This document shows, one piece after another, positions 18,919 to 32,501 of a stretch of DNA of 32,501 nt; the stretch's first letter is position 1, and each line of letters opens with the position of its first letter. The notes beneath the pieces are model-generated. The model searched no databases, was not told the DNA's origin, and was given only the letters and a program-made list of their open reading frames with translations. The stretch covers positions 1 to 32,501 of the forward strand of contig WGEZ01000006.1 of assembly GCA_015492515.1 (NCBI GenBank), in the 5' to 3' direction. The position numbers and the translations under genes were made by a program. The stretch is from Nitrospirota bacterium (GTDB lineage: Bacteria > Nitrospirota > Thermodesulfovibrionia > Thermodesulfovibrionales > JdFR-85).

Positions 18919-19935
18919 TTGAACAAGACCCTGATATCCATACTGAGGGTGCTCGGAAAGCACCAGGACGAGATCGTCGGCTCCCGGGAGATCGCCCGCC
19001 AGCTCAAGATGCACGGGGTGAACCTCTCGGAGAGGACGGTGAGGTATCATCTGAAGATGCTCGACGATCGCGGCCTGACCGACCCCTTCGGAAAGGAGGG
19101 ACGGAGGATAACGGAGAGGGGGAAGGAGGAGCTCTCCAGGGCCCTTGTTTCGGAGAAGGTCGGCTTCGTAATCAGCAGGATCGACACCCTCTCCTATCTC
19201 ACCAGCCTCGATCTCGACAGCCTCAGGGGTGAGGTGATCCTGAACGTCTCCTTCATCCCGAAGAGATGCCTCAGGGAGGCCCTCAGGATAATGAGACCCG
19301 TCTTCGCCTCACCCTATGTAATGAGCGACAGGGTGGTTGTAGTGAAGGAAGGCGGCAGGATAGGCGACGTCACCGTACCCCGGGGACGGGTCGCTGTAGG
19401 GACGGTCTGCAGCGTCACCATAAACGGGGTGTTCCTGAAGGCCGGGATCCCCGTGGTCTCCAGGTTCGGCGGCGTGCTCGAGATCGAAGAGGGTGGACCG
19501 ACGAGGTTCATCTCCCTGATAAGCTACGAGGGGTCGTCGCTCGACCCCCTGGAGGTCTTCATCCGCGGGAAGATGACCGACGTCACGGGGGCCGTCAGGA
19601 ACGGAACGGGCCGCATCCTGGCCAGCTTCAGGGAGATACCCGTTGTCTGCCACAGGAAGGCCAGGGAGCTGTCCGAGAGACTCAAGGCAAGGGGCATAGG
19701 GGGGATACTCGCCATCGGCGAGCCGAACGCTCCGCTGTACGAGATGCCAGTGAGCATGGACCGCTCCGGCATGGTGATAGTGGGCGGGCTCAACCCTGTA
19801 GCCGTCCTCGAGGAGGCGGGTATCCCCACGGAGAGCAAGGCCATGTCCACCCTCCATGAGTTCTCCTCCCTGACGGTATTTGAAAACCTCTGTTCCGACG
19901 GCAGACAAAGGAGGGAGAGATGCCGGAGATCCTGA
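18919..19935 (+). CDS. nrpR: NrpR-type transcriptional regulator (winged helix + one NRD/DUF128 domain)
   Basis: A 338-residue regulator. Residues 1-70 are a winged helix (SREIARQLKMHGVNLSERTVRYHLKMLDDRGLT); residues about 77-320 match the NrpR regulatory domain (GTVCSVTINGVFLKAGIPV, SRFGGVLEI, YEGSSLDPLEVFI, ILASFREIP, MVIVGGLNPVAVLEEAGI). In methanogens NrpR represses nif and glnA operons and releases DNA when 2-oxoglutarate is high. The single NRD matches the NrpRI form; M. maripaludis NrpR has two. The start is TTG with GGAGG four bases upstream. It lies between glnE and the PDO-TrxR gene (overlap 16 bases) and about 3.6 kb before nifA, so a nitrogen-repressor role is well supported by both sequence and context. 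Confidence 0.88.
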   Translation: MNKTLISILRVLGKHQDEIVGSREIARQLKMHGVNLSERTVRYHLKMLDDRGLTDPFGKEGRRITERGKEELSRALVSEKVGFVISRIDTLSYLTSLDLDSLRGEVILNVSFIPKRCLREALRIMRPVFASPYVMSDRVVVVKEGGRIGDVTVPRGRVAVGTVCSVTINGVFLKAGIPVVSRFGGVLEIEEGGPTRFISLISYEGSSLDPLEVFIRGKMTDVTGAVRNGTGRILASFREIPVVCHRKARELSERLKARGIGGILAIGEPNAPLYEMPVSMDRSGMVIVGGLNPVAVLEEAGIPTESKAMSTLHEFSSLTVFENLCSDGRQRRERCRRS

Positions 19936-23374: not shown

Positions 23375-23446
23375 GTTTGAACATGAGTCGCGGGCGATGA
23401 TCCCGGCCTGTGTATGGTATATGCACTGCAGGGAGCCTCAAGATTG

Positions 23447-23465
23447 ACGTCCGGTGCACGGACGT
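23447..23465. repeat. Inverted repeat before nifA
   Basis: ACGTCCG-GTGCA-CGGACGT, perfect 7-bp arms with a 5-base centre, between TTGACG and TATTAG and 49 bases before the nifA start. It may be a second operator or an RNA hairpin in the leader. Confidence 0.45.
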
Positions 23466-23514
23466 ATTAGAATTCCGTCGGGCGTTCGGTCCCGGCTGCC
23501 CGGAGGATCATGGA

Positions 23515-25068
23515 GTGACGGACAGGGAGAAGGAACTGATAGTCAGGAAGAACAGGGAGCTGAGTGCGATCCTTGAGGTGAGCCGCGTCCTCACCGCCTC
23601 CTTCGACCTCGAGGAGAACCTCAGTGCGGCGATGAAGATCCTGGGAAGCCTCCTTGAGATGCAGAGGGGTTGCGTATTCCTCCTGGACCCCATCTCGGAG
23701 GAGCTCCGCATCGTCGCCGCCCACGGGCTCACGAAGGAGGAGATCAAGCGCGGCAAATACCGTATAGGGGAGGGGATCGTGGGCAGGGTGATCAAGACGG
23801 GCTCGCCCATGTTCATACCAAACATCGGTGAGGAACCGAAGTTCCTGAACAGGACCGGTTCAAGGCCGAACAAGTACGGTATATCCTTCCTCTGCATCCC
23901 CATCGAGCTCAAGGGTGAGATCCTCGGTGTGATCAGTGCGGACAGGATCTATGCGGAGGAGCACGGCGGGGTGGACGACGACCTCAGGGTGCTGACGATC
24001 GTGGCCTCCCTGATCGCCCAGTTCGTGAAGCTCTGGGAGAACTACAGGAAGTCAGAGCAGGAGAGGGAGTCCCTCCGGTCCCAGTTGAAGGAGAGATACA
24101 GCCTGCCGAACATAGTGGGTGAGTCCGAGAAGTTCCAGAGCATACTGAAGACGGTGATGAAGGTCGCCGGCACGGATACGACCGTCCTCCTCCTTGGTGA
24201 GAGCGGGACCGGTAAGGAGCTGATCGCCAGGACGCTTCATTACCAGAGCCGCCGTGCGAAGGGACCCTTCGTGACGGTGAACTGTGCGGCACTGCCCGAC
24301 AACCTCCTGGAGGTCGAGCTCTTCGGCGTCGAGAAGGGGGCGTTCACAGGGGCCACGGCGAGCAGGGCCGGCAGGTTCGAGATCGCCAACGGAGGGACGA
24401 TCTTCCTTGACGAGATAGGGGAGCTTCCGCTGGGGCTGCAGGCGAAGCTGCTGAGGGTGCTGCAGGAGCGCGTGTTTGAGCGCGTCGGCTCCTCCAGGTC
24501 GATAAAGGTCGACGTGAGGGTCATTGCAGCGACGAACAAGAATATACTCGAAGAGGTGAAGAGGGGGAACTTCAGGGAGGACCTCTACTGGAGGCTGAAC
24601 GTGGTGCCCATCGTCCTGCCCGCCCTCAGGGAGAGGAAGCGCGACATTCCGCTTCTGCTGAACTACTACCTGGAGAAGTTCAACAGGACCTACGGCAAGA
24701 GGGTGAGGTTCTCCGAGGAGGCCCTCTCGACCCTGAAGGAATACCCCTGGCCGGGGAACGTGAGGGAGCTCGCCAATACGGTGGAGAGGCTGGTGATAAT
24801 GGCCGAGAAGGACGTGGTCGACACGGAAGACCTGCCCTTCAACCTCACAAGCGCGGCACCGGGAGCGGGGACGGAGACGAGCCTCCACGCATACGAGAAG
24901 CACACCTTGAGCCACGAGGTGCAGAGCCTCGAACGGGAGAGGATCATCAGGGCCCTGAGGGATCACGACTACATTCAGCACAGGGCGGCAAAGGCCCTCG
25001 GGATAACACCGAGGCAGCTCGGCTACAGGATAAAGAAGTACAGGATCGAGCTCAACCAGATAAAGTAG
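23515..25068 (+). CDS. nifA: Nif-specific sigma-54 activator NifA
   Basis: Activates sigma-54 RNA polymerase at nif promoters. About 517 residues from the GTG at 23515, which has GGAGG eight bases upstream; an in-frame ATG at 23410 is less likely. Order: GAF domain (about 20-180, [23 protein letters not shown].. at its start), AAA+ domain with Walker A GESGTGKE (about 228), the sigma-54-contacting GAFTGA loop (about 276) and Walker [10 protein letters not shown] (about 295), then a Fis-type HTH ([21 protein letters not shown], about 488-509). The linker lacks the Cys-x4-Cys of oxygen-sensitive rhizobial NifA, and no nifL is visible. A general sigma-54 activator is possible, but the GAF layout and location beside nif genes favour NifA. 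The 3' end overlaps hesA by 17 bases. Confidence 0.92.
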
Positions 25069-25823: not shown

Positions 25824-26714
25824 TCAGAGGACCATCTCACAGTACTCCTCACCGATCATCGCGTTTATCATCTCCAGGTCCGTGTCCCTCTCCTCACCGA
25901 TCCCGCCGAAGGCGTCCGCCCTGCATTGACGGCAGTGGGTCATCTGAGGGATGAAGCGGCTGCATTCATTGCGCAGCCGGTGGAGCTCCTCACGGGTGGG
26001 TCTCGGCAGGTGTCCGAGCTCAGCCAGGGGTATGAGGGGGATTATATTCATGAGACCCGCCCCTCTGCCGCCGGCAAGTCGTGCTATGAGGGGGAGTTCG
26101 GTGTCGTTGACGCCGGGGATCAGCACGGTGTTGACCTTCACGACAAGCCCCGCGGCAGCGGCCTTTCCCAGTCCTTCCCACTGGTTGCGCAACAGACGCT
26201 CCGCTCCCTCTCTGCCGTGGCAGCGCCTCTCCTTGTACTCCACCCATGAGTATATCCTTTCGGCGGTCTCGGTCGTAACGGCGTTTATCGTGATCGTCAG
26301 GCTCCTCACCCCTGCCTCCAGGAGGTCTTCGAGCCTGTCGGGAAGGCAGAGGCCGTTCGTCGAGACGCAGAGGATCAGCCCGGGAAACTCCCTGTGGACC
26401 GACCTCAGGACGTCGAAGGTGGTTCCGTTTGCCAGGGGGTCACCCGGTCCGGCTATCCCCACGACGTTCATCCCGCCGTCTCTCTCGGCAAGCACCCTCA
26501 CCCTTTCCAGGGCCTCGCGGGTGGTCAGGACCCTGCTCGTCACACCGGGCCTTGATTCATTCGCACAGTCATATCTCCTGATGCAGTACCTGCACCGTAT
26601 GTTGCATGCAGGGGCTACGGGGAGATGAAGCCTGCCGAACCTCCTGTGAGCATCCTCCGAGAAACAGGGGTGCTTCTTCACGACGTCGGCGCCGGCCTTC
26701 AAGGTCTCCTTCAC
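25824..26714 (-). CDS. nifB: Nitrogenase FeMo-cofactor core synthase NifB, short form
   Basis: Radical-SAM enzyme that fuses two [4Fe-4S] clusters with carbide and sulfur to make NifB-co. About 296 residues: HPCFSEDAHRRFGRLHLPVAPACN start, the SAM-cluster motif C37-x3-C41-x2-C44, DCANESRPGVTS, GIAGPGDPLAN, STNGLCLP, and C-terminal MTHCRQCRADAFG, so ligands of the extra clusters (Cys17, His23 and the CxxC pair) appear present. The NifX-like C-terminal domain of proteobacterial NifB is absent, as in archaeal-type NifB; a separate nifX lies upstream. The GTG at 26714 overlaps the nifI2 stop by four bases (GTGA), with GGAGAGG upstream. Longer readings through nifI2 are out-of-frame shadows. Confidence 0.95.
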   Translation of the reverse strand: MKETLKAGADVVKKHPCFSEDAHRRFGRLHLPVAPACNIRCRYCIRRYDCANESRPGVTSRVLTTREALERVRVLAERDGGMNVVGIAGPGDPLANGTTFDVLRSVHREFPGLILCVSTNGLCLPDRLEDLLEAGVRSLTITINAVTTETAERIYSWVEYKERRCHGREGAERLLRNQWEGLGKAAAAGLVVKVNTVLIPGVNDTELPLIARLAGGRGAGLMNIIPLIPLAELGHLPRPTREELHRLRNECSRFIPQMTHCRQCRADAFGGIGEERDTDLEMINAMIGEEYCEMVL

Positions 26715-27127
26715 GCTATCGCCTCTCCATCCCGCTCTCCGGTCCGTATCCTCAGGGCACCGTCCACAGGAGATACGAAGACCTTGCCGTCTCCGTGCCT
26801 TCCTGTCCGGTTGACCCTGACGATCGCCTTCACGAGCATTGTGACAGCCTCGTCCGGCACGACGATGGTGAGCAGCTTCTTCGGTACAAAAAGCGCAGCC
26901 TTCGGCAGGGTGTGCTCGAGGGCGTATGTGGATGGCGTGGGTTTGAGTCTCGCCGCTGTGCAGAAGCTCTCGGGCATCTCTGAGTCCATCTCGGCGCACA
27001 TGGCGCCCTTCTGTTTCCCTCTTCCGTCGACGCTCTGGATCGTGAGCGAGGGGTAGCCGAGCTCATCAAGCACCCGCTTCGTCTCCGGGACCTTGTCCCT
27101 CCTGATGATCGCGGTGATCTCCTTCAT
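26711..27127 (-). CDS. nifI2: PII-family nitrogenase regulator NifI2
   Basis: The larger PII-like partner of NifI1, 138 residues. It begins MKEITAIIRRDKVPETKRVLDELGYPSLTI and has GRGKQKGAM, then an extended T-loop region (about 48-80, LKPTPSTYALEHTLPKAALFVPKK) longer than in GlnB, then RTGRHGDGKVFVSPVDGALRIRTGE. In methanogens and anaerobic bacteria the NifI1-NifI2 complex binds the MoFe protein and blocks nitrogenase when 2-oxoglutarate is low. Here it overlaps nifI1 by four bases (ATGA) and nifB by four. Such genes normally sit between nifH and nifD. Confidence 0.93.
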   Translation of the reverse strand: MKEITAIIRRDKVPETKRVLDELGYPSLTIQSVDGRGKQKGAMCAEMDSEMPESFCTAARLKPTPSTYALEHTLPKAALFVPKKLLTIVVPDEAVTMLVKAIVRVNRTGRHGDGKVFVSPVDGALRIRTGERDGEAIA

Positions 27128-27441
27128 AGGCCGGCCTCCCCGGTCCTGACGGTGTAGGCGCTCTCCACGGGGCTGACGAAGATCTTGCCGTCGCCGATGA
27201 AGCCGGTCCTCGCCTTCGCCTGAATTATACTCACCACCTTCTCCTCGTCCTCGTCATCGACGATGATCATCAGCAGGGTCTTGGGCAGTTCGTCGTAATG
27301 CACAGGCCCCACATGGAGGCCCTTCTGCTTACCCCTTCCGAAAACCGGCATCTTCGTAACGGACGGAAACCCTGCACCCTCCAGGGCCAGAACCACCTCC
27401 TGCTCCTTCTCCGGTCTTATGAACGCCCTGATCATCTTCAT
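27124..27441 (-). CDS. nifI1: PII-family nitrogenase regulator NifI1
   Basis: A 105-residue PII-like protein: MKMIRAFIRPEKEQEVVLALEGAGFPSVTK, FGRGKQKGLHVGPVHYDELPK (a T-loop without the uridylylated Tyr context of GlnB), LLMIIVDDEDEEKVVSII, and GFIGDGKIFVSPVESAYTVRTGE. This pattern is NifI1 rather than GlnB/GlnK. It forms the switch-off complex with NifI2 on nitrogenase. AAGGAGGAAAGACC precedes the ATG, a strong ribosome site at the start of the nifI1-nifI2-nifB coupled trio, 58 bases after nifX; no separate promoter is convincing in that gap. Confidence 0.93.
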   Translation of the reverse strand: MKMIRAFIRPEKEQEVVLALEGAGFPSVTKMPVFGRGKQKGLHVGPVHYDELPKTLLMIIVDDEDEEKVVSIIQAKARTGFIGDGKIFVSPVESAYTVRTGEAGL

Positions 27442-27499: not shown

Positions 27500-27889
27500 C
27501 TAACCGTCATTCATGGCCTTTCTGAGCCACGGCGGCGGCGACGTCCTTACGGTCCGGAGGAGCCTCTTCAGTGCCTCTTCCACGGGGGTCCCCTCCCTCA
27601 CCTTTACGGGCATCATCCCCCTCCTGGAGAGCCTTGCAGCCGACGGCCCTCCGATCTCCGTAAGATACACGATCCTGCAATCCGAGAGGCTGTCGACCTT
27701 GCGCTCCACCCTCTCCTCATGTAACCGTCCTTCCGACTCCTCTATGCCGGAGTCCCTGCCCTCGGCGAACCTCCTGATCTCGACGAACTGATAACCCTCC
27801 TCCGTCAACTCGTATATGGCGAACGCGCCTGCCCTGCCGAAGTGCTCATCCACGTTGAGGCCGTCCGTCGTGGCGAAGGCGATCTTCAT
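27500..27889 (-). CDS. nifX: NifX-like dinitrogenase FeMo-cofactor carrier protein
   Basis: A 129-residue protein of the NifX/NafY/NifB-C-terminal fold, which carries NifB-co or FeMo-co precursors between NifB, NifEN and apo-nitrogenase. It starts MKIAFATTDGLNVDEHFGRAGAFAIYEL, containing the conserved DEHFGRA with the His used for cofactor binding, and has CRIVYLTEIGGPSAARLSRRGMMPVKV, then VEEALKRLL. The Cys is the only one in the protein. Its ATG shares one base with the nifEN stop (TGATG), so the two are translationally coupled. NafY-type proteins are longer. Confidence 0.88.
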   Translation of the reverse strand: MKIAFATTDGLNVDEHFGRAGAFAIYELTEEGYQFVEIRRFAEGRDSGIEESEGRLHEERVERKVDSLSDCRIVYLTEIGGPSAARLSRRGMMPVKVREGTPVEEALKRLLRTVRTSPPPWLRKAMNDG

Positions 27890-30510
27890 CAGCGCACCTC
27901 CATTAAAAGATCAGCCACTTCATTGATGGTCGTCAGGGTTCCCCTGTAACCTACGGTTATCCTCGCGTTGTACCCCAGGGTCTTGTACACGGGAAATCCC
28001 ATCTGATACAGGGGAATTCCGAGCCTCCTCGCCGCAAGCTCTGCATGGGAGTTTGAAATCATGAGATCAAACTCGCCCTCCGGAGAGAAAAGGTCACCGA
28101 TCTTTACCTCTTTTGCATCAATCCCTCGCACCGATGGTGAATGATGTGGAATCACTGCAAGCTCAACCACTGCACCCATCTCCCCGATCACCCTCGAGAC
28201 CTGGACCGAAAGGTCAGGCTCAAGAGCTGTGCAGAACCTCTTTCCTCCGTAGCAGAAACGGGCGTCTCTCATCCCATCGATCAGAACCCTTCTCTGTCTT
28301 TCATATCTGAGAGGCAGCGCTCTGCCACTCAACGCCGAGAGTATGTCCATCAATGCGTCTGTCCCGCTTAGACCGGAGATGCTTTCAAGCAGCGTGTACT
28401 CGATTCCGAACTTCTCCCTCAACATTTTAGCGGGCTGCTCCATACTCATCCCGACGGCGATCGTGAACTCTGAACTCCCCATCTGATCTACCTCTGACAG
28501 TCTTATGCCTCCAGATGCAAGGGGGGAGAAATCCCGCCTGCTTCCGTCGAGAGCGGACAGATCGGGTAACATAAGGGGTCTCAGCCCGAAGGATTCGATC
28601 ATCTCCCTTAGTTCTGTAAAGTCAGCAGGCGTCAGATGTGGACCTGCAAGGACATTCACCCGTCCCGCGGCCTCTCTCCTGTGCCCCGTCCGCTCAGCCT
28701 CTATACCCTCAAGTACGGCCTCCACCGCCTTTGCATATCCTGCCTCCAGGCCACCTTCATACTCCGGTGCAGGGACATGAACGATCCTGCATCTGCCGCT
28801 CGACGTCTGCAATCTCTTCATCGCTCCTGTCACATCATCACCCCTGACCTCTGAAAGCCCGGAGGTAAGGACGGCGATCAGATCCGGTCCCTGTTTCTCC
28901 ACGATCCCTTCAATGACGTTTACGAGTCTTTCCTCGCTTCCCATCACCACATCCTCTGTAAAGAGTTTTGTACTCGCAAGGGCTATGGGCTCCCTGAAGT
29001 GTTTTGTAATGAGCGCCTTTGCAAGGAAGCTGCAGCCCTGTGCGCCGTGAATCACCGGCAACGCCCTGTCTATACCCTGAAACGCGATGGCGGCCCCGAT
29101 GGACCGGGAGTGTTTCAGGGGATTGATAACCACATCCCTGCTTCGAAGGATCTCTGATCTGTCGGGAAGACCTCCTGACTTCCGGCTCCTCACCCCTCCC
29201 CCGGCCGGCTCTTGACCGAAGAAGCGGATACCGTTGCTGATGTCTTCCGCAAGATTAACGAGCCCTTCATATCCGGCATACGCTCTGTGCCGTTCCTGAT
29301 TCACGTCCACGAACGGGAAGCCCTCTTTCACGGCAAGATAGAGGTTTCTGCCGCCGGCCACAAGTATGTCTGCCTCCTTCTCCTTCATGAGCGCCCTCAG
29401 CCTTTCGGGACCCACATCTTCATAGAGGGGTGCGTCCTCACCAAGCAGCTGCCTCATCTTTTCTTCATCCTCATAGGTGCTCTTTTTCGTCCCCGCTGCA
29501 ACGACGTCGACACCCAGGTCGAGGAGGGCCGAGATGAAGGACCAGCTCTTCACACCGCCTGTATAGAGGACCGCCTTCCTGCCTCTTAAATGGGAAAACT
29601 CCCTCAGTCGTTCCTCAAGCCGCCTTTCCTCTCTCTCGATTATCTCCTCAATCCTGCCGCGCAGCCTTCTGAATCCCGGGTTTCGAATTTCGAGTCTTGA
29701 ACATATCGCCCTCAGCGCCCCGGTCATCTCGGTCTTTCCGAAAAAAGAGACCTCAACATAGGGAATGCCGTATCTCTCCTCCATCCTCCTCGCGACGTTC
29801 AGAAGGGCACGGCTGCAGACCACCACATTCAGCCTCGCCCTGTGTGCATAGGTTATCTCTTCAAAGCATGCATCTCCGGTGATCCTGGAGAGTATCCTGA
29901 CGCCGGCCTCCTCGAGCAAGGGCTCGACGTTCCAGAGGTCCCCGGCGATGTTGTACTCGCCGATGAGGTTTATGTCGTAATCGGTCCTCGACGGGGGTTC
30001 TCCGGTCCCGATCACGTGATCAACGAGCACCTCTCCCGCCATCCTGTTGCCGAGGTTTTTGGGGCCGACAAAACCAGGAGCGTTCACAGGTATCACCCTG
30101 ATGCCGAGGGTGGTCTCCGCCTTCCTGCATACCGCCTCAATGTCCTCTCCGATGAGCCCGCTTACGCATGTTGCGTAGACGAAGACGGCGGCGGGTCTTA
30201 CAGCCTCGTACGTCCTGATGATGGCTCTGTAGAGTTTGTCCCCGGAGCCATAGACGATATCCAGCCCCGTTATGTCTGTTGTAAAGCCCATCCTGTACAG
30301 GTTGCCTTTTGTGGAGAGGGTGCCCCTGCCTTCCCAGGAGTTGCCGCAGCATGCTATGGGGCCGTGAACGATGTGAGCGGCGTCGGCAATGGGCTGAAGC
30401 ACGATCATCGCACCGTCGAAGGCGCAGGATTCACCTCCGCGGCTGCGGCATACCCTGTCGACCGATTTGCTGCATCCGTCATCAAGTATTTTATCCGCCG
30501 CCTTCAACAT
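27889..30510 (-). CDS. nifEN: Fused FeMo-cofactor scaffold NifE-NifN
   Basis: One 873-residue reading frame carries both scaffold subunits that mature FeMo-co from NifB-co. Residues 1-433 are NifE: Cys29 (GGESCAFDGA), Cys54 (GPIACCGNSW) and Cys115 (YATCVSGLIGED) match the [4Fe-4S] ligands, and VDVNQERHRAYAGYEGLVNLA closes the domain. A 20-residue Gly/Arg/Ser linker (about 434-454) follows. Residues 458-873 are NifN: NPLKHSRSIGAAIAFQG, GAQGCSF with the fourth ligand (Cys493), and LFTEDVVMGSE. No stop or frameshift is seen between them. NifE and NifN are usually separate genes. Starts 17 bases after nifK, with GGAGAGG upstream. Confidence 0.94.
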   Translation of the reverse strand: MLKAADKILDDGCSKSVDRVCRSRGGESCAFDGAMIVLQPIADAAHIVHGPIACCGNSWEGRGTLSTKGNLYRMGFTTDITGLDIVYGSGDKLYRAIIRTYEAVRPAAVFVYATCVSGLIGEDIEAVCRKAETTLGIRVIPVNAPGFVGPKNLGNRMAGEVLVDHVIGTGEPPSRTDYDINLIGEYNIAGDLWNVEPLLEEAGVRILSRITGDACFEEITYAHRARLNVVVCSRALLNVARRMEERYGIPYVEVSFFGKTEMTGALRAICSRLEIRNPGFRRLRGRIEEIIEREERRLEERLREFSHLRGRKAVLYTGGVKSWSFISALLDLGVDVVAAGTKKSTYEDEEKMRQLLGEDAPLYEDVGPERLRALMKEKEADILVAGGRNLYLAVKEGFPFVDVNQERHRAYAGYEGLVNLAEDISNGIRFFGQEPAGGGVRSRKSGGLPDRSEILRSRDVVINPLKHSRSIGAAIAFQGIDRALPVIHGAQGCSFLAKALITKHFREPIALASTKLFTEDVVMGSEERLVNVIEGIVEKQGPDLIAVLTSGLSEVRGDDVTGAMKRLQTSSGRCRIVHVPAPEYEGGLEAGYAKAVEAVLEGIEAERTGHRREAAGRVNVLAGPHLTPADFTELREMIESFGLRPLMLPDLSALDGSRRDFSPLASGGIRLSEVDQMGSSEFTIAVGMSMEQPAKMLREKFGIEYTLLESISGLSGTDALMDILSALSGRALPLRYERQRRVLIDGMRDARFCYGGKRFCTALEPDLSVQVSRVIGEMGAVVELAVIPHHSPSVRGIDAKEVKIGDLFSPEGEFDLMISNSHAELAARRLGIPLYQMGFPVYKTLGYNARITVGYRGTLTTINEVADLLMEVR

Positions 30511-30527: not shown

Positions 30528-32033
30528 TTATCTGATTACATCAAAGCTCTGTGTATCCATGGACGCCCTGTCCATCTCGTCAAGCACGGTGTTGACTATC
30601 CAGTTCACGAGGTTTATCACCCCCTGATATCCGACTATTGGATATCTGTGCAGATGATGCCTGTCAAAGATCGGGAAACCGATCCTGACGAGTGGGGTTC
30701 CCGTATCCCTCCAGAGAAACTTCGCATAGGAGTTTCCGATGAGCAGATCCACAGGCTCTATAAACATCAGGGACCTCAGGTGCCACATGTCCTTCCCGGT
30801 GTAGACCTTTCCGTTCCTTCCGTGGTAGCTGCTCCCGAGTAATGCACCGGCCTCCTCTTCAAAACTCCTCTCACCGTTCGTGCAGACGACATGGACGGGT
30901 TCTCCACCCATCTCCATGAGAAAGCCCATCAGGCCCAGGAGCAGATCGGGATCCCCCACAAGGGCGAACCTCCTGCCGTGGACGTAGGGGTGGGAGTCCA
31001 CCATGGCATCGACGGCCCGGCCCCTTTCTGCTTCAAGCTCTTCAGGGATGGGGCTGCCGGTGAGCCTGCTTACCTCTTCCAGGAACCGGTCGGTGTTCTC
31101 CACCCCTATGGGCATCGGTCCCGCAATGAACTCCTGTCCCCACACCTCTCTGACAAACTCCCCCGTCTTGAGGGTGGAGTACCTCTGCATGGACATCGTC
31201 GCGACGGCGTTGACGGCATCCCTCACATCCTCAAGGGGGGTTCCTCCAGGATACATTACATGCTCGCCGTAATTCGGAGAATCCATGACGTCAGAGATAT
31301 CGGCAAGCACCGAATACTCAACACCCATGAGGCCCAGGAGCCTCTTCATCTCCCTAATGTTTCCTGTATAGGTATCAAACCCTGGAATTATATTTATCCT
31401 TCCGTTGGAGCCACCTTTTCCTCCGGTGAAGTAGCCGAGGATCCCCTTCAGCATGTTGTCGTAACCCGTGATGTGGGAACCGACGAAACTGGGAGTATGG
31501 GCGAAAGGCACAGGAAGCTCCAGCGGTATTCTTCCCTTGTCTTTTGCCTGTTTTATAAAGGCGCTCAGGTCATCCCCGATCACCTCTGCCATGCATGTGG
31601 TTGATACAGCGAGCATCTCAGGTTTGTAAATGGCATAGGCATTTTCAAGCCCCTCGAGCATGTTGTTCAGCCCGCCGAAGACGGCGGCATCCTCCGTCAT
31701 CGAAGAAGAGACGGCAGGCACCGGTTCTTTGAAATGCCTGCTGAGATGACTCCTGAAGTACGCCGTACAGCCCTGGGAGCCCTGCACAAAGGGCAGGGTC
31801 TTCTCGAACCCGAGGGCGCAGAGCACTGCACCCAGAGGCTGACATGCCTTTGCAGGATTAACAACCAGTGCCTGCCGCGCAAAATTCTTTTCCTTGTACT
31901 CCTCGGTCTTTGTCCACTCAAGGGTCTCCTTTATCTCATCCTCTCCACAGGGCTTTTCAAATTCACGTTTTCTCTCAAACTGTTCGAGATAGCACTGTTC
32001 TTTGAAGAGTTCAAGGTGGTCCTTTACTCTCAT
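30528..32033 (-). CDS. nifK: Nitrogenase MoFe protein beta subunit NifK
   Basis: The beta subunit of dinitrogenase, holding half of each P-cluster. 501 residues, close to the short NifK group. P-cluster ligands Cys64 ([10 protein letters not shown]), Cys89 ([17 protein letters not shown]) and Cys147 ([13 protein letters not shown]) are in place, with [18 protein letters not shown] carrying the conserved Ser, and [13 protein letters not shown]. The V/Fe-type beta subunits lack some of the N-terminal extension; the KCMDHYELFKEQ-like start here ([20 protein letters not shown]) supports the Mo form. AGGGAGGA lies five bases before the ATG. It is the first gene of its operon; no nifD precedes it within the window. 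Confidence 0.96.
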
Positions 32034-32155
32034 CTGTTCCTCCCTATGGTGATGACTTTCCGATTACAGACCGAGAACATGATTCATACCACCAACCTCA
32101 GCGGTCCTTCCTTGTTCGTCCGCACTCGAGACAACGTAGTCCGGAATGCAAAAAT

Positions 32156-32171
32156 AACAAGAAACATGCCA
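32156..32171 (-). promoter_or_regulatory. Candidate sigma-54 promoter of the nifK operon
   Basis: On the minus strand TGGCATG-TTTC-TTGTT, close to the sigma-54 consensus TGGCAYR-N4-TTGCW. The -24 GG is exact; at -12 the expected GC is GT. Transcription would start near 32145, giving a leader of about 110 bases. The rest of 32034-32349 (316 bases, strongly AT-rich) holds only this site and the two activator sites below; no coding region was found there. Confidence 0.5.
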
Positions 32172-32287
32172 GTAACAGTGTGGGGACTGAACTGATAGAA
32201 GGTTATAAGAATGCAGTATTTTCAATGTTCTCAGGGCGGGAAGAGATTAAGGTAAATCCCTTATACGAAAGGCAGGCAGGACATAAA

Positions 32288-32303
32288 TGTTTAACGGATT
32301 ACA
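32288..32303. promoter_or_regulatory. NifA upstream activator site, proximal
   Basis: TGT-TTAACGGATT-ACA, an exact TGT-N10-ACA NifA site, centred about 150 bases upstream of the predicted nifK start site. The motif reads the same on both strands. Confidence 0.6.
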
Positions 32304-32327
32304 AATCTGTTGCAAAAATCAGTTTTT

Positions 32328-32343
32328 TGTATCTATCTAGACA
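32328..32343. promoter_or_regulatory. NifA upstream activator site, distal
   Basis: TGT-ATCTATCTAG-ACA, a second exact TGT-N10-ACA, 40 bp from the first, so on the same DNA face (about four turns). It ends seven bases before the stop of the truncated nucleotidyltransferase gene. Confidence 0.6.
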
Positions 32344-32349
32344 GAAATG

Positions 32350-32501
32350 TCAAATCGGGACACCCTCTTTTTCTATGGCCATTGCAAGTAATGAGGACCT
32401 TTCAGGAGAATTTTCCCACTCATCTCTGCTATAAACAACAGGAACTATTACTATACCATGTTCAAACCCAGCCTCCCATGCACACTCACTTACATAATCT
32501 C
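32350..32501 (-). CDS. Nucleotidyltransferase-domain protein (MNT-like), C-terminal 49 residues only
   Basis: An open minus-strand frame enters from the right edge and ends at TGA (32350-32352). The 49 visible residues, DYVSECAWEAGFEHGIVIVP then VVYSRDEWENSPERSSLLAM and AIEKEGVPI, fit the C-terminal end of MNT-type nucleotidyltransferases, where a Pro-x-V strand, an acidic E-W/F-E segment and a final I-x-x-EG-V-x-[IL] recur. Such proteins are often antitoxins paired with HEPN toxins; neither the catalytic GS-x-DxD part nor a HEPN partner is inside the window. Codons are AT-rich (GTA, ATA, TTA), unlike the left part of the window. Confidence 0.6.
   Translation of the reverse strand, partial: DYVSECAWEAGFEHGIVIVPVVYSRDEWENSPERSSLLAMAIEKEGVPI

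Follow-up and report, generated by a model that had tools for sequence, protein, structure and literature searches.

Comparison of nif loci indicates that in one clade of Thermodesulfovibrio-like Nitrospirota nifD and nifK, the genes for the α and β subunits of the MoFe protein, have come apart, and that nifK there carries its own sigma-54-type promoter and an enhancer-like element shared with nifH. The split in the relatives, the conserved promoter module and the common element are read from the sequences themselves; NifA binding, a transcript start near 32145, balanced expression and the placing of nifHD of the window's organism in an assembly gap are what we infer from them. We hold with considerable confidence to the account as a whole, namely a clade-wide break between nifD and nifK, a promoter and enhancer belonging to nifK, and common control of both units by NifA.

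The window, the whole stretch of DNA that was analysed, is the entire contig WGEZ01000006.1 (32501 bp, G000:C6), and its right end is the contig end. It belongs to a 2.19-Mb draft genome (G000) in 148 contigs, rated 100% complete, whose NifK has its best matches in records named Nitrospirota and Thermodesulfovibrio sp. On the minus strand at the right end of the window, the order is a cut open reading frame, a 316-bp gap, nifK, nifEN, nifX, nifI1, nifI2, nifB and a ThiF-like gene, with nifA convergent to the nifK-nifB run:

32350-32499, minus strand: open reading frame cut by the contig end, running off it at 32501
30528-32033, minus strand: nifK, MoFe protein β subunit, 501 aa (TIGR01286, 805.8 bits against a cut-off of 427.3)
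27889-30510, minus strand: nifEN fusion, 17 bp after nifK (TIGR01283 and TIGR01285, both above cut-off)
27500-27889, minus strand: nifX (TIGR02663, above cut-off)
27124-27441, minus strand: nifI1, P-II family (PF00543; place in the canonical nif order)
26711-27127, minus strand: nifI2, P-II family (PF00543)
25824-26999, minus strand: nifB as mechanically listed (radical SAM domain; TIGR01290 from residue 104, 325.8 bits, slightly below the cut-off of 343.65)
23410-25068, plus strand: nifA (TIGR01817, 540.8 bits against 528.85; GAF, sigma-54 interaction (AAA+) and Fis-type HTH Pfam domains)

The nifK product qualifies as a Mo-nitrogenase NifK both by TIGR01286 and by its P-cluster cysteine motifs, which are intact in an alignment with solved MoFe β chains from the PDB. 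With a dN/dS of about 0.05-0.07 against its nearest relatives, nifK is under purifying selection. The true start of nifB probably lies some 100 codons downstream of the first GTG of the listed frame; as listed, this frame shares the 25824-27127 region with nifI2, overlapping it in another frame. A Pfam search with the frame at 32350-32499 gave no match, and a first impression that it is the tail of a nucleotidyltransferase found no proof. The window also encodes, at 18919-19935 near glnE and nifA, a homologue of the archaeal-type nitrogen repressor family NrpR, which turned up in 34 of the 61 genomes searched; of 14 control genomes, the two methanogens alone have it.

The initial annotation had described the 316 bases before nifK (32034-32349) as free of genes, and this is borne out: the gap holds no nif gene, and the next open reading frame on the same strand ends at 32350. 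The gap is AT-rich, with a GC content of 42% against 60%, and contains the following features:

32281-32310, minus strand: 30-bp enhancer-like element, ACA-N4-TGT-N10-ACA-N4-TGT, 12/12 letters in 4/4 nifK upstream regions
32328-32343, minus strand: second TGT-N10-ACA, not conserved in relatives
32172-32156, minus strand: sigma-54-type -24/-12 element CTGGCATGTTTCTTGTT, 5/5 conserved, with GG at 32170-32169 and GT for GC at -12
32145, minus strand: predicted transcript start (+1), placed from the -12 spacing, giving a 112-nt leader

The motif TGGCATG-N4-TTGTT lies where it had been reported, and across the nifK upstream regions of five genomes it has the consensus CTGGCAYGNTTCTTGTT, conserved in all five. 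A sigma-54 promoter is defined by GG at -24 and, after a 10-bp spacer, GC at -12; nifK has the GG but GT at -12. Because nifH of the relatives G007 and G008, in which the operon is canonical, also shows GT at this position, the substitution appears to be a local variant and not a sign of decay. In the five-genome alignment the conserved block spans about 150 bp, from the 30-bp element to -12, and outside it nothing aligns across the set except the ribosome-binding site. Promoter and start codon are separated by 70 to 273 bp, owing to insertions between them, as expected if it is the promoter alone that has been kept. The conservation of the promoter in five genomes thus supports the proposal that nifK heads a transcription unit with a control region of the NifA/sigma-54 type. 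That unit does not appear to consist of nifK alone, as had been suggested, since nifEN follows 17 bp on and nifX, nifI1, nifI2 and nifB come after it in the window; it is in two relatives that no nif gene follows nifK.

Two exact TGT-N10-ACA sites, 40 bp apart, are present as reported, at 32288-32303 and 32328-32343. Their presence by chance had been judged improbable, and for the gap this holds, at least two sites arising in 0.6% of its Markov shuffles, but the quoted expectation of one per 4096 positions overstated the case, the window containing three such sites against 2.74 expected. The chance argument is weaker than was put forward; the main evidence comes from the relatives and from the 30-bp form. 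Of the two sites taken for tandem NifA sites, the one at 32288-32303 forms the core of the element at 32281-32310, to which conservation is limited; the alignment of relatives does not bear out the site at 32328-32343 as part of a conserved tandem upstream activator sequence, and it is probably a chance match or a weak extra site. All 12 letters of the 30-bp element are kept in each of the four nifK upstream regions, of five, that are long enough to reach it, and in these four the core lies 132-136 bp 5' of the -24 TGG. Shuffling the gap produces the element in 0.01% of cases. It occurs once in the 2.19-Mb G000 genome when the core may read TGW, and a scan with the pattern reversed as a control gives no site there.

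The same element stands before sigma-54-like promoters at nifH, nifK and nifEN. It matches at 12/12 letters before nifEN of G003 and at 11/12 before nifH in the split clade, where the core has TGA for TGT. Among the nifH upstream regions of the relatives, 15 of 33 carry it with at least 11/12 letters against 0.0 in shuffles, a figure that is not independent for the split clade, the template having been derived from these same sequences, so that the genome-wide scan is the cleaner comparison. In some relatives, two ACA-N4-TG dyads are found 21 bp apart. Three further intergenic copies precede a porin-amtB operon in G007 and G011 and a UrtA-like gene in G003 (L193:1501-1530, L194:1501-1530 and L198:654-683; the names amtB, porin and UrtA-like were judged from sequence), and each is followed after about 78 bp by a TGGCAY-type sigma-54-like promoter. 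Nitrogen scavenging may also be under the control of the nif regulator. The remaining matches, several of them within coding sequence, look like chance occurrences.

The element lies 78-143 bp upstream of -24, in the position of an enhancer, and this placement suggests a site for a sigma-54 activator. Of the possible factors NifA fits best, since TGT-N10-ACA is the site published for it (PMC6066989) and its gene is present in the window. Binding instead by another sigma-54 activator, for example a general nitrogen regulator of the NtrC type, with the split itself real, is the alternative to be taken most seriously, and we consider it unlikely. The copies before the amtB and urtA operons would suit such a regulator, as would the TGA in the core at nifH of the split clade and the 21-bp dyad spacing, which breaks the N10 rule of NifA; against it stand the match of the core to the published NifA site (PMC6066989), the position of nifA beside the nif genes both here and in published Thermodesulfovibrio clusters (PMC12501866), and the fact that the sole copy in G000 is at nifK. 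To the idea that the element is an operator for the NrpR repressor we attach hardly any weight. Its gene is present in the window and in 34 of 61 relatives, and the site is palindromic and found at nitrogen genes, but the enhancer position argues against a repressor, and G027, a single contig rated 100% complete, has no NrpR and yet carries the element with 12/12 letters at nifH. NrpR was rejected on this last ground as the factor for the 30-bp element.

The initial annotation had proposed that nifD does not precede nifK, and the relatives uphold this. In the four nearest, G003, G005, G010 and G013, whose NifK is 87-91% identical, nifH and nifD are adjacent on a contig different from that of the single nifK; neither in these genomes nor in the window is nifD found immediately 5' of nifK on the same strand. 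Coordinates from 28 further relatives, 9 from the same family and 19 from the same order, put nifD directly 5' of nifK in every one, and among named relatives with enough upstream sequence a nifD-sized open reading frame or pieces of one mostly precede nifK. Contigs of two genomes span the break, with 3.5 kb of non-nif DNA before nifK and 1.1 kb after nifD in G010, and 1.8 kb and 0.6 kb, respectively, in G013. The sequence 5' of nifK in G010 includes a pair of genes judged from their sequence to be TRAP-like transporters. The suggestion that nifH and nifD be located in the complete genome was answered in these four relatives, where they are found apart from nifK, but not in the G000 draft, in which HMM searches of the assembly for nifH and nifD found neither. 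Because every other nif gene is intact there, an assembly gap is probably the reason rather than loss, and the place of nifHD in the window's organism is presumed from its relatives.

A branch separates the split genomes from the rest in the trees of NifK (94/88), NifD (93/87) and NifH (76/92), and the canonical G007, G008 and G011 are their nearest neighbours in the NifK and NifD trees. Since the split group occupies one side of this branch, a single ancestral break between nifD and nifK would be the simplest reading. Near relatives present three stages: nifHDK-EN intact; nifHD apart from nifK-EN; and nifHD, nifK and nifEN all apart. Downstream of nifK, G003 and G013 have a convergent gene and no nifEN, leaving nifK with no following nif gene; nifEN of G003 lies on a third contig behind a promoter-like region of its own. 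A conserved stem-loop, CTGCCCTCAGAG-loop-CTCTGAGGG, follows nifD in all four of G003, G005, G010 and G013, with folding z scores of -3.0 to -5.3; it has no U-run, and either a terminator or a stabiliser is possible. In G003 and G010 the 3' end of nifD also keeps a AAGGAGGAAGAA stretch, where canonical relatives carry the ribosome-binding site of nifK.

Two observations concern the surroundings of nifHD. The DNA after nifD is nearly identical in G003 (L163) and G013 (L165), which are placed in different genera and whose nifK differ by 12%; this may be a sign of recent exchange or of bin contamination. Near nifH in three split-clade genomes lies a conserved gene of about 300 aa in the opposite direction (L163:4459-5352, L164:1290-2195 and L165:3548-4387), of which G002 and G008 have full-length copies on contigs without nifH. 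An attempt to locate nifHD of G000 through this neighbour (297 aa) failed, there being no full-length G000 copy.

The split genomes are all drafts, apparently MAGs, and none shows nifHD and nifK together on a closed chromosome; it could be argued that nifHD truly precedes nifK and has been displaced by mis-assembly or mis-binning. Upstream of nifK, the contigs of G000, G003 and G005 stop after 374-468 bp, nifH and nifD are missing from the G000 assembly, and the near-identity of the DNA that follows nifD in G003 and in G013 may point to exchange or bin contamination. We nevertheless regard such an artefact as quite improbable: the break recurs in four further genomes, drawn from no fewer than three projects with different names; either side of it leads, within one contig, into unrelated sequence in G010 and G013; the block upstream of nifK is conserved between genera; the split group and its sister group are recovered alike in the NifD, NifH and NifK trees; and a conserved stem-loop ends nifD where nifK would begin. 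Improbable, too, is a true loss of nifHD from the G000 organism, the other nif genes being relics and nifK no longer used in a nitrogenase. An assembly rated 100% complete that has neither nifH nor nifD speaks for loss, but marker-gene completeness is uninformative on a single 2.3-kb locus, and nifK, nifEN, nifX, nifI1, nifI2, nifB and nifA are intact, with a dN/dS of about 0.05 for nifK and a fully conserved nifK promoter.

On the reading that we prefer, an ancestral nifHDK-EN-X-I1-I2-B operon would have broken between nifD and nifK in this clade of Thermodesulfovibrio-like Nitrospirota. The nifHD part would have kept the nifH promoter and now has a stem-loop at its 3' end, and nifK would have come to head a second nif unit (nifK-EN-X-I1-I2-B in G000, nifK without nif followers in two relatives), gaining a sigma-54-type -24/-12 promoter and one 30-bp enhancer with a NifA-site core. 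Under nitrogen limitation, active NifA would bind the elements before nifH and nifK and drive sigma-54 RNA polymerase at both, nifK transcripts would start near 32145 with a 112-nt leader, and matched enhancers in place of a shared mRNA would balance NifD and NifK. A more general proposition, towards which we lean only slightly, is that the α and β units separated once in the ancestor of several Nitrospirota genera, that each new head gene (nifHD, nifK and, in G003, nifEN) came to be preceded by a common enhancer of double-dyad form, with a NifA core and a 20-bp spacing of its two ACA-N4-TGT units, and that matched promoters keep the balance.

In Bradyrhizobium, nifH lies apart from nifDK. There, as here, the structural genes are divided among separate units that each have a NifA site; in the present case, however, the break falls not between nifH and nifD but between the two subunits of one MoFe protein. 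The nifDK and nifH promoters are handled separately in PMC6066989. The published Thermodesulfovibrio operon has the order nifHDKENXIIB with nifA downstream (PMC12501866). The window resembles it in its genes, in the order K-EN-X-I-I-B, in the nearby nifA and in a fused nifEN, as in strain TK110, and differs in that nifH and nifD are not in front and nifK heads the unit with its own promoter. Known NifA/sigma-54 nif promoters share with that of nifK the TGT-N10-ACA core, the enhancer spacing, TGGCAY at -24 and, in the window, the presence of nifA; unlike the classic examples, this one has a 30-bp form with outer ACA and TGT, GT at -12 and a position before nifK. In heterocyst cyanobacteria an 11-kb element sits inside nifD (PMC4284476; survey in PMC4874684), and in Anabaena this excisable element interrupts nifD and nifK1 has no promoter of its own (PMC4284476). 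There too nifK is cut off from its upstream promoter, but that state can be reversed by excision, whereas the separation described here appears fixed and nifK has a promoter. A literature search found no account of nifD and nifK being permanently separated, with nifK under a promoter of its own, though one may have been published elsewhere. The arrangement appears to be new; its parts are known.

The products of nifD and nifK are the two halves of one heterotetramer. Separate and separately promoted, the two genes offer a natural test of how much a shared mRNA matters for subunit balance, a question also relevant to rebuilding nitrogenase in other hosts, and the stages seen in the relatives trace an operon coming apart, every new head gene having a promoter.

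Searches for RNA families, covering the window and the nifK leaders of two relatives, found none. The leaders of G005 and G013 contain an insert (L011:1540-1770; L012, about 126-356), which is a 230-nt palindromic repeat of a dispersed family, so that a riboswitch is unlikely. The family has no member in G007 or G011, 13 matches in G008, 14 in G000 and 33-87 per genome in G003, G005, G010 and G013. The two leader copies are 100% identical, in species whose nifK differ by 10%.
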